Assembly (NCBI GenBank): GCA_903868145.1
Contig: CAIPTY010000087.1
Coordinates: forward strand, 62,001-126,000
Length of the DNA stretch: 64,000 nt
Source of the DNA: an uncultured Desulfuromonadales bacterium
GTDB taxonomy: Bacteria; Desulfobacterota; Desulfuromonadia; Geobacterales; Pseudopelobacteraceae
Direction: 5' to 3'
Notes under the pieces: model-generated
What the model saw: the letters and a program-made list of their open reading frames with translations, nothing else
The model's database searches: none
What the model was told of the DNA's origin: nothing
Program-made: the position numbers and the translations under genes
Part shown: positions 2,684-7,672 of the stretch, one piece after another
Numbering within the stretch: position 1 is the first letter of the stretch
Layout: the number at the start of each line of letters is the position of its first letter

Positions 2684-3523
2684 TTGCATGACCATCTTCA
2701 ACCAATGTTGTTCACTGACTCCACGGAAACGCAATCGTCTGACTCGTTTCAGGAGCTTCTGGCGAGCATTGCAGCCAGACCCAAATACCTTCCCGAGTGG
2801 CCGGAGAGCCACAGGGTGTTACCCAACGAGATTTTGCGTTCGGCGCTTTTCAACTGCCGCAACAGGAACCTTCCCCGCGTGTTCATGAAGGAGGTTGAAA
2901 TAGCAGTGATCGGAGATGGCCAGGTCATCTATCGCGGCGAAGAACTACGACAGGATGATGAGCTTGTCTGGATGCACCTTATGCATCTGATCAAAAAAAT
3001 CCCGTTGGGTGAATGTGTCACGTTTACTCCCTACTCATTCATCAAGGCACTCGGGTGGCCCATCAAGGGCCAGAATTACGAAAGGCTGCGTACCTGTCTC
3101 AGTCGCATGCAGGCCACAGCACTCAGAATTCAGTCGAAGCGACTGGACAGTTTCATCAGCATCTCCTTGATTCAAAAATTCATGTCCAGAAACGACCGGA
3201 ATGAAAATCTTTCCCGATGGGAGGTCTGGATCTGCAAGGAAATGCAGTTGCTGTTCGACGAAGATTTTCTGACCCGGGTGACCTGGGAAACAAGACGTTC
3301 ATTGCCTGACGGTATTGCTTCCAAGTTGTTCGGCTATTGGGCCAGTCACCGCAAGCCGTACCCGGTCAAAATCGAGACGTTATCGAAGCTGTGCGGTTCT
3401 GGAATGAGTGCGAAGCATTTCAAGGCGGAGTTGAAAAAGGCCCTCGATCTTCTGAAAGAGGCGGGTTTCTTGGAGTCGTCGGAATTTAAGGGTGAGCTAG
3501 TCGTCGTTAGCCGAAAGTATTGA
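2684..3523 (+). CDS. trfA: TrfA-family plasmid replication initiator
   Basis: The 279-residue protein resembles the IncP-type TrfA/RepA initiator family: a conserved block with NEILRSALFNCRN, EVEIAVIGDGQVIYRGEEL and DDELVWMHLMHLI, then a TPYSFIKALGW segment and a C-terminal winged helix. TrfA-type proteins bind iterons and recruit DnaA and helicase. A TTG start at 2684 is chosen because GGGAGG lies six bases before it; an ATG at 2705 is the alternative. Six iterons lie immediately downstream and the first overlaps the stop codon. This is strong support for an active or recently active plasmid replication module inside a chromosomal element. Confidence 0.88.
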   Translation: MHDHLQPMLFTDSTETQSSDSFQELLASIAARPKYLPEWPESHRVLPNEILRSALFNCRNRNLPRVFMKEVEIAVIGDGQVIYRGEELRQDDELVWMHLMHLIKKIPLGECVTFTPYSFIKALGWPIKGQNYERLRTCLSRMQATALRIQSKRLDSFISISLIQKFMSRNDRNENLSRWEVWICKEMQLLFDEDFLTRVTWETRRSLPDGIASKLFGYWASHRKPYPVKIETLSKLCGSGMSAKHFKAELKKALDLLKEAGFLESSEFKGELVVVSRKY

Positions 3524-3646
3524 CCTATGACCGACCGGATATTGACTTATGACCGACTCACTATTGACCTATGACCGACTGCTACTGACTTTTGACCGAC
3601 CTGAATATTGACTTTTGACCGACCTGAACCATGACCTATGACCGAC
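3518..3646 (+). repeat. Six iterons of the replication origin
   Basis: Six direct copies of an 18-bp unit (TATTGACCTATGACCGAC and close variants) start at 3518, 3540, 3562, 3583, 3606 and 3629. Spacing is 21-23 bases, about two helical turns, so all face the same side of the DNA. The last eight bases before GAC are nearly invariant (TGACC), and each unit itself contains TGAC twice. Location directly after trfA identifies them as initiator-binding iterons, and overlap of the first with the trfA stop hints at autoregulation or handcuffing control. Confidence 0.9.
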
Positions 3647-3689
3647 TGGCATAGTTCTGATTTCTTAAAATATTCGATTGGTTACAAGG

Positions 3690-3735
3690 TTATCAACACC
3701 CCGCTAACCTTCTTTTAACCAATTTTTAACCATAA
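3690..3735 (+). other. Candidate oriV core: DnaA box and AT-rich unwinding stretch
   Basis: TTATCAACA at 3690-3698 matches the DnaA box consensus TTATCCACA in eight of nine positions. It is followed by an AT-rich stretch with two copies of TTTTAACCA (about 3713-3730). Iterons, then DnaA box, then AT-rich repeats is the usual order of an iteron-type origin. The melting site is inferred. Confidence 0.7.
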
Positions 3736-3765
3736 GAGGCGTCGGATTGACAGGAAGGAATAGCG

Positions 3766-4083
3766 ATGAACTGCCCATTTCCCGATGAAGCAATGAAGAC
3801 CGTGGTTTCGTATCTACGTCGCTCCGGCCAGACCGTTGTCTTATCGGAAGGTTCATTTGTCCTCACGAAAGGGACGCCAAATATCATCGTCATTGGACAG
3901 GCATGCGCAGTCGGTGCGGTGTCTTTGACCGAGGATGGCTCTATTCAGGTATGCGGAACACGAATCATTGGCGAGATGGATACCGTAAAGCTACGCAGAA
4001 GAGTTGAAGATCATCTACGCAAATCGGCTTCGAAGCAGGACATTATCCGCATAGCAGCATGTTTGGGAATCAGATTGAAGTAG
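3766..4083 (+). CDS. Unknown protein of the mobile element
   Basis: This 105-residue protein is not recognised. It looks soluble, with alternating strands in the first 75 residues (QTVVLSEGSFVLTK, NIIVIGQACAVGAVSL) and a basic helical C-terminus (KLRRRVEDHLRKSASKQDIIRIAACLG) that could bind nucleic acid. A ribosome site (caggaaggaatagcg) precedes the ATG. It is the first gene after the replication origin and ends before a structured RNA region with a terminator. A role in copy control or element maintenance is possible, but the sequence does not show it. Confidence 0.6.
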   Translation: MNCPFPDEAMKTVVSYLRRSGQTVVLSEGSFVLTKGTPNIIVIGQACAVGAVSLTEDGSIQVCGTRIIGEMDTVKLRRRVEDHLRKSASKQDIIRIAACLGIRLK

Positions 4084-4261
4084 AAGCTGATTCTCGTTTT
4101 CTGAGAAAGCCATACCAAAAGGGCAGTAACGCGTCTGGATTCGGTCCGTAGCCGTTTCGGGTCGCTTAATCGAATTATTCATTCTGGCACGGCCAGGCTC
4201 ACAGCGTTGAGCACTGGCAAAGCCGGTCATCGAAGCACGACTTCGAGGCCGGCTTTTTTTT
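4084..4261 (+). ncRNA. Candidate structured leader RNA before the sigma-like gene
   Basis: No gene fits this stretch. Its 3' part folds into two tandem hairpins. The first, 4192-4218, pairs GCCAG-GCTCA with TGAGC-A-CTGGC around a six-base loop. The second, 4219-4256, is a terminator. The next start codon is only 17 bases after the T-run, so the sigma-like gene has no room for a private promoter and must be reached by read-through. It could be a leader attenuator or simply the 3' end of the preceding transcript. Confidence 0.4.
4219..4261 (+). terminator. Intrinsic terminator just before the sigma-like gene
   Basis: AAAGCCGG (4219-4226) pairs with CCGGCTTT (4249-4256), and an inner CGAAG/CTTCG stem sits on top. 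The stem is followed by an unbroken T-run to 4261. The downstream ribosome site begins at about 4264. Confidence 0.85.
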
Positions 4262-4278
4262 ATCTGGAGGGTTCCCCT

Positions 4279-4836
4279 ATGGACTTTCAGCAAGCAATGG
4301 CATGGGTAAGTGAGCATGAGTCTGCAATCAAGGGTTATATCGCCAAGTACCGCAATTTTTCACCGTATGAAGAGTGTGACTACATGCAGGAAGCCTTTGA
4401 AGCCGCAATGATTGCGGCTATCCGCAGCAGGGAGAAGAACCTTGCCTTCGAGGCAGTGTTCTGGAAGGTATTCCGAAATCATATCAGTGTCATAACTCCG
4501 TCGCCGAATATTCTGACCCATGGATCAAATTCGATTCCCTCGCATGTCTGTACAGAAGACCTGACGTTCGTTACCGAAAACAGAGCAGATAGAAGACACA
4601 AAGATCCTGATATCGAGATGATCTTTCAGTCAATGCGCCATCACCTTACGGACAAGGAACAACAGGTCCTTTACTATGCCCTCGGAATCGGTATGGAAGG
4701 AAGTATGTCAAATTACGAGATCGCTGATCTTCTGGGGTGTGTCCCGTCAAATATTCGTGACATTCACAAGAGAGCATTTCGACGGATAGAGCAGCTCGTT
4801 AAGAAGGGCATCATTGACCCCAAGTGTTTCGCTTGA
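4279..4836 (+). CDS. Sigma-70-like protein of the mobile element
   Basis: The ATG at 4279 is chosen for its ribosome site (ctggagg), giving 185 residues; the frame is open further upstream but only through the terminator. The N-terminal half (about 20-75) resembles region 2 of group 4 sigma factors (YKEECDYMQEAFEAAM-like pattern). The C-terminal part from about 120 contains a region-4-like helix-turn-helix (LTDKEQQVLYYALG, then SNYEIADLLGCVPSNIRDIHKRAFRRI). It may be a sigma factor or a sigma-derived regulator such as those in phages. Shared -10-like elements without -35 boxes upstream of element operons make it a candidate for their recognition; that link is inference. Confidence 0.65.
   Translation: MDFQQAMAWVSEHESAIKGYIAKYRNFSPYEECDYMQEAFEAAMIAAIRSREKNLAFEAVFWKVFRNHISVITPSPNILTHGSNSIPSHVCTEDLTFVTENRADRRHKDPDIEMIFQSMRHHLTDKEQQVLYYALGIGMEGSMSNYEIADLLGCVPSNIRDIHKRAFRRIEQLVKKGIIDPKCFA

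Positions 4837-7597: not shown

Positions 7598-7672
<75 letters not shown>

Follow-up and report, generated by a model that had tools for sequence, protein, structure and literature searches.

We propose that the leader preceding a sigma-like gene in the window, that is, the whole stretch of 64,000 nucleotides analysed here, is a protein-responsive transcription attenuator, in which the product of the upstream open reading frame orf105 binds a nascent RNA structure (P1-loop-P2) and permits read-through into the sigma-like operon, a reading to which we assign a probability of about two in three. The reading frame orf105 (3766–4083, + strand; 105 amino acids) lies directly upstream of the leader, and the sigma-like gene (4279–4836, +; 185 amino acids, ATG at 4279) follows it, its product matching TIGR02937 with an E-value of 5.8e-11 (42.3 bits against a cut-off of 42.9) and PF04545 with 22.2 bits (cut-off 24.1). 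The likely effector, the 105-amino-acid protein encoded just upstream of the leader, had been overlooked in the earlier note on this DNA.

Folding of the leader gives two hairpins in tandem on the + strand, hairpin 1 at 4192–4218 and hairpin 2 at 4219–4256, the latter running into eight T (4254–4261) to form an intrinsic terminator (4219–4261), after which comes the Shine-Dalgarno sequence of the sigma-like gene (GGAGGG, 4266–4271). The hairpins and the T-run, 17 nt before the sigma-like gene, thus lie where the earlier note had placed them, and they fold strongly: the segment 4186–4262 reaches −40.9 kcal/mol (z = −6.15), with none of 200 dinucleotide shuffles equally stable, and the whole 4084–4278 stretch has z = −2.81, with 3 of 200 shuffles equally stable. 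The terminator is predicted from the sequence by the usual features of the intrinsic type, a stable G+C-rich hairpin and then a U-tract; a simple terminator scan of the window did not list the 4219–4261 site, probably owing to a bulge in the stem. Rfam release 15 returned nothing but a tRNA for the whole window at the gathering threshold, and no family match for the region 3524–4400 up to E = 5.

A third helix competes with this arrangement. In the predicted folds, five pairs formed by CUGGC (4184–4188) and GCCGG (4222–4226), here called P1, extend hairpin 1 (P2 and its apical stem) across a 3x3 internal loop with ACG on its 5' side (4189–4191) and AAA on its 3' side (4219–4221), the latter also being the 5' A's of the terminator stem. 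Because the 3' strand of P1 is at the same time the 5' base of the terminator stem, P1 and the complete terminator are mutually exclusive. All 28 distinct leaders can form the three core pairs of P1 (L004 with a shifted 3' anchor), these pairs are present in the predicted nascent-RNA fold of all 28, and the finished terminator is predicted to be more stable than the P1 state by 3.1–9.3 kcal/mol (mean 6.4) in this set. The internal loop is almost constant, with ACG in 26/28 and AAG in 2/28 leaders on the 5' side, and AAA in 27/28 and AAG in 1/28 on the 3' side.

Homologues of the sigma-like protein were found in 37 of 147 related genomes, and a leader with a T-run lies upstream in 33 of the 43 loci read, with the distance from the end of the T-run to the start codon being 17 nt in 23 of these 33 (range 9–19). 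Across the aligned leaders GGCACGGCC and GCAAAGCCGG are nearly invariant, and conservation is poor upstream of about 4180. A covariance model built from 21 distinct leaders matched 38 places with at least 47 bits in 29 of 141 genomes of the order, the next match scoring 33.6 bits; 33 of these places precede sigma-like genes, four precede a transfer operon and one precedes a lone orf105. Five of the weak matches (below 34 bits) were inspected and rejected as ordinary terminators without GGCACGGC. A loose pattern, GGCACGGCN{8,30}AAAGC, was uninformative, as it matched 140 of 141 genomes and, by eye, no oftener than its reversed control. A search around genome G022 matched 11 of 38 genomes, all of them already known.

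Covariance analysis in related elements, which the earlier note had proposed as a check, bears out both hairpin stems. In the 21 distinct leaders 93.2% of cells in hairpin 1 and the terminator are paired (22–44% in slid controls), although P2 is interrupted by one mismatch each in L010 and L002. The covariation score is 0.245 against 0.140 ± 0.012 in shuffles, and nine pairs change on both sides against 5.0 ± 1.3, where the shuffles keep relatedness in and the structure was drawn from the same leader sequences. This conservation and covariation is stronger proof than fold energy that the leader structure is real. P1 itself is too invariant and therefore beyond the reach of the covariation test, as none of its five pairs is changed on both sides and 92.4% of cells pair. 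It is nevertheless supported, at the level of sequence comparison, by wobble exchanges (C-G to U-G in L146, U-G to C-G in three of the four copies before the transfer operon) and by the leader of genome G114, which differs in sequence yet keeps P1, the 3x3 loop (ACG/AAG) and P2.

The same module is present in Geobacter argillaceus, Geomobilimonas luticola, Geomesophilobacter sediminis and Trichlorobacter thiogenes, as well as in metagenome-assembled genomes, two of which are labelled Chlorobiaceae; these two orf105-leader loci (L135, L148) perhaps lie on mis-binned contigs. The source genome of the window has a second, divergent orf105-leader-sigma-like set (G000:C44:54274-55274, L002), whose sigma-like protein is 38% identical. 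In L027, L028 and L029 further sigma-like matches adjoin the first sigma-like gene, the one in L029 being just 42 amino acids long. Distant homologues of the sigma-like protein (about 31%) are encoded on two plasmids, NC_008607 of Pelobacter propionicus and CP014964 of Geobacter anodireducens.

Several observations bear on how the sigma-like gene is transcribed. The orf105 stop codon lies just 31–39 nt before P1 in several relatives, and the consensus scan of the + strand from 3000 to 4279 found no sigma-70-like site, so that the leader transcript probably comes through orf105. A promoter inside or after the terminator was among what the earlier note had named as evidence against its view, and on the strength of the scan we rejected a consensus sigma-70 promoter ahead of the sigma-like gene. 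A sigma-54 promoter was considered for TGGCACG, which resembles a −24 element, and was rejected, since the aligned leaders, read by eye against the consensus, have no −12 element (GC at fixed spacing). The earlier note had held that the gene can only be expressed by read-through. Conditional read-through is well backed by the comparisons, through the conserved terminator and its distance to the start codon, the alternative antiterminator helix, the closeness of the orf105 stop codon to P1 and the result of the promoter scan, whereas the word "only" goes too far, as another type of promoter is possible.

Judged from sequence, the leader RNA tracks orf105 and not the sigma gene. We found orf105 in 30 of the 147 genomes, and all 29 genomes with the motif are among these 30; in the remaining one, G048, the motif is cut by the contig end. 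All 27 orf105 loci of the genome-contig scan give a motif match (L150 a truncated one, 41 bits). When the sigma-homologue loci were sorted by the core 8-mer, 33 had both orf105 and the 8-mer (counting G124), six had neither, one (L030) had the 8-mer only and none had orf105 only, for a sample of 40 of the 43 loci, L026, L039 and L043 having been dropped for too little upstream DNA. These co-occurrences of full-length orf105 and the leader fall almost wholly within one order, and the counts are not phylogenetically independent. Among the individual loci, L040 has a sigma homologue with neither orf105 nor the motif, and in L030 GGCACGGC stands before a distant sigma homologue without T-run, terminator or orf105, where it is either a relic or due to chance. 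In G124 (L005, L060, L123) stop codons interrupt orf105, whereas both leader and sigma-like gene persist. The T-run of G124 is broken as well; we dropped this as evidence for a link between orf105 and the leader, because the transfer-operon copies also have interrupted T-runs.

In G114 the counterpart of the window stretch 3733–4243 has been replaced between flanks that are 92% and 91% identical. The replacement brings a 44%-identical orf105 together with its own, different leader, and the right-hand homology restarts inside the 3' arm of the terminator. Such a natural joint replacement of protein and RNA makes the specificity of orf105 for its leader directly testable. The pair also occurs away from sigma genes. 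For example, the second orf105 of G134 has the motif 16 nt before its start codon, with no sigma homologue found beside it on a contig that ends about 0.8 kb further on, and four extra motif copies in three genomes (G022 on two contigs, G013 and G135) stand directly before a transfer-operon gene set, which by eye is the counterpart of the window transfer operon led by OmpA-like and DsbC genes (from 2059, − strand). The window transfer operon itself has no such leader motif. The earlier note had regarded the sigma-like protein as the switch of the element; the leader does precede the sigma-like gene, but given the four copies before the transfer operon and the one before a lone orf105 it is not specific to sigma genes.

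The protein orf105 is predicted to consist of an N-terminal part of alpha/beta type and, at residues 72–104, a basic C-terminal domain of two helices. The structural model has a mean pLDDT of 70.8, with the N-terminal part fairly confident and the C-terminal helix pair weak (about 50–60), and the model predicted without an alignment is poor (44.4). A Pfam scan gave no family at E <= 1; comparison with Pfam, NCBIfam, PHROG and PDB gave no convincing relative; a Foldseek search of the model against PDB gave nothing at E <= 0.001 (best 0.51); and the C-terminal 34 residues had no match up to E = 5 in the phage and plasmid record collections. A search of the phylum with orf105 gave matches in 5 of 395 genomes, namely three known members and two borderline ones. 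We propose orf105 as a candidate RNA-binding antiterminator of an undescribed family.

In the mechanism that we hypothesize, transcription from orf105 or further upstream would enter the leader, and the nascent RNA would first fold as P1, the 3x3 internal loop (ACG/AAA) and P2. Without the effector, the more stable terminator would invade P1 and halt RNA polymerase 17 nt before the sigma-like gene. With it, the basic C-terminal two-helix domain of orf105 may bind the P1-loop-P2 RNA, hold P1 and thereby shorten the terminator stem, so that read-through would reach the sigma-like operon and, in some relatives, the transfer operon. The binding of orf105 to the leader, the read-through direction of the response and the controlling signal are what we infer here. 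The direction is suggested by the geometry: without P1 there is no such loop, and with P1 the complete terminator cannot form, so that a protein that recognizes the loop should favor read-through.

Alternatively, orf105 might be an autogenous negative regulator, which binds the RNA, promotes termination and limits the sigma-like and transfer genes as it accumulates. Such feedback would suit a gene that lies ahead of the terminator and probably shares a transcript with it, and the terminator is already the more stable state by prediction; however, the near-invariant loop exists only with P1 formed, and P1 excludes the full terminator, which makes this alternative unlikely. The leader might also do without orf105 altogether. 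A terminator and a P1 helix competing around a conserved internal loop also occur in riboswitches, and the leader of G124 persists beside a broken orf105, as would be expected if the leader were a small-molecule riboswitch or an attenuator read by a host factor, with orf105 merely a neighbor in the module. However, the motif and orf105 occur together in the order-level searches except in G124 and the contig-end case G048, they were replaced jointly in G114, both recur without a sigma gene, the orf105 domain recurs beside viral leaders of similar logic (see below), and the Rfam search up to E = 5 gave no match; we consider it quite unlikely that orf105 is a bystander.

A terminator that is simply leaky and thereby fixes how much orf105 is made relative to the sigma-like protein, without any switch, would be enough to account for the conservation of the terminator and of its spacing. 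It would leave the near-invariant 5' GGCACGGCC, which is superfluous for a terminator, and the P1 pairing unexplained, and we therefore regard it as very improbable. It is also conceivable that P1-loop-P2 is a nut-like loading site, from which orf105 boards RNA polymerase and passes this and later terminators processively. Conjugative elements do use such systems, conAn and canT (PMC8955417, PMC11658703), but the overlap of P1 with the terminator itself points to local action, and the transfer operon, where it is concerned, has its own leader copy. Processive action thus seems improbable for orf105, and we continue with the protein-responsive attenuator acting locally.

Protein-controlled antitermination is a known kind of regulation, and we would file the orf105 leader there, with the protein family and the RNA as undescribed; we found no description of the orf105-leader module in the open-access literature searched. 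Among known systems, the BglG/LicT/SacY proteins stabilize an antiterminator stem with internal loops (RAT) against an adjacent terminator in a 5' leader (PMC3369936, PMC9981650). The orf105 leader likewise has, by prediction, a helix mutually exclusive with the terminator. However, orf105 has no CAT or PRD domain (Pfam scan, E <= 1), RAT has two asymmetric internal loops where the orf105 leader has one symmetric 3x3 loop, and the controlled genes are sugar operons in one case and belong to mobile elements in the other. ANTAR targets are two stem-loops with A1 and G4 in their loops. The orf105 leader has stem-loops before a terminator too, whereas the window apical loop, CAGCGU, is without A1 and G4 and the second window loop is CACGA, so that they do not qualify as an ANTAR target; the loops differ in length and sequence between leaders, the conserved residues here being in the internal loop, and orf105 has no ANTAR domain (Pfam scan, E <= 1). 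The ANTAR proteins NasR, AmiR and EutV are thought to stabilize an antiterminator that overlaps the terminator stem (PMC3369936). By analogy with CAT proteins on RAT, and with what is proposed for ANTAR proteins (PMC3369936, PMC9981650), a loop-binding orf105 would favor read-through.

In conjugative elements, conAn1 and conAn2 of pLS20-type plasmids are a protein and an RNA that control the conjugation operon by antitermination, and canT provides terminator/antiterminator control in the integrative and conjugative element Tn916 (PMC8955417 and PMC11658703). Both differ from the orf105 leader in being Gram-positive and processive, and in conAn, which is set apart here on its description, the RNA antiterminates and the protein is the processivity factor. 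A likeness of another kind is offered by phages: the orf105 leader, too, combines a basic helical protein part with an RNA hairpin. In phage lambda, a short arginine-rich helix of the N protein is paired with the boxB hairpin; N recognizes boxB through the loop of the hairpin and, together with Nus factors, acts processively, the comparison being one of general descriptions.

Proteins encoded on IMG/VR contigs, most of them 41–88 amino acids long and one of 179, share the C-terminal domain of orf105. Three of these viral contigs share the next downstream gene, and a search with that gene yielded 18 contigs, in 15 of which (14 distinct) a small basic reading frame precedes a leader, as judged by eye; it is absent in L174, L179 and L180. 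A profile of the 14 viral small proteins aligned with the C-terminal 32 residues of orf105 at an hhalign probability of 96.7% (E 4e-10), and a profile of the 11 proteins found only via the downstream gene did so at 95.3% (E 2e-8), compared with 1.5% for an unrelated control; each of these E-values refers to a single comparison, and taken individually L177, L178 and L182 look weak. The covariance model had no match in the three such viral loci to which it was applied, and a pattern scan of the viral contigs found no relative of the sigma-like protein.

To describe the RNA side, we used a signature, GC-ANN-GC ... GC-ANN-GC with at least four of six P1 pairs and at least three of four P2 pairs. 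On both strands of the 18 viral loci (231,932 bases) it occurs at seven places, all on the coding strand between the small reading frame and the next gene, so that 7/14 viral leaders carry the signature with P1 and P2 and the other 7/14 are without it, under criteria set after some of the viral leaders had been read. The P1-bearing signature is absent from dinucleotide shuffles of the 14 viral leaders (300 each). In all seven signature-bearing leaders the fold predicted for the nascent RNA contains P1 (three to six pairs) and P2, and that of the full leader no longer has P1, the 3' strand of P1 being mostly re-paired downstream in six of them and at one position in L176. Four loci, L152, L157, L159 and L160, have the domain and lack the exact 3x3 signature; in L152, inspection by eye shows CGCC facing GGCG in a pairing whose position overlaps with a terminator base. 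The scan is unspecific on G+C-rich DNA: besides the leader, it picks up three further places in the window, and across the 27 orf105 loci it yields three places that do not coincide with the core motif, together with an additional core-like one in L134, which lies about 0.7 kb beyond the leader and is probably due to chance.

From these comparisons one may sketch an undescribed, widespread class of antitermination, in which a basic two-helix domain (about 32 residues), which makes up almost the whole of the small viral proteins and follows an N-terminal domain in orf105, would recognize a 3x3 loop flanked by G-C pairs (GC-ANN-GC ... GC-ANN-GC), hold the helix against an overlapping terminator and gate the sigma-like factor and the transfer operon of conjugative elements. 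We consider the chances for and against this wider generalization to be evenly balanced. If true, a new RNA-binding domain and its RNA target would join the short list of protein-controlled antiterminators, termination control would be placed at the front of a Gram-negative conjugative element, and phage-like genomes, which seem to rely on this domain and this RNA logic too, would be linked to it. Many of these viral contigs (L165–L182) have, before the conserved gene, long-hairpin leaders with a CTTTTTGTCGTTTTTTG-like tail, and for one member of this downstream gene family neither Pfam nor PHROG gave a match at E <= 0.1.

Some features of the surrounding element are worth recording. The homology between the window and G114 stops precisely where a tRNA-Gly gene (7598–7672, −) has its 5' end, at 7672, and the element probably ends at or in this gene. 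The region 2684–3732 has the look of a replication origin within the element: after a TrfA-family replication gene (PF07042) come TATTGACCTATGACCGACC-like repeats in tandem and phased repeats of TTTTAACC. Between the transfer operon and trfA, the segment 2144–2636 (+) contains a PPDK_N-like fragment (22.1 bits, cut-off 27) and a 57-amino-acid AlpA-like reading frame (PF05930, 23.8 bits, cut-off 21).
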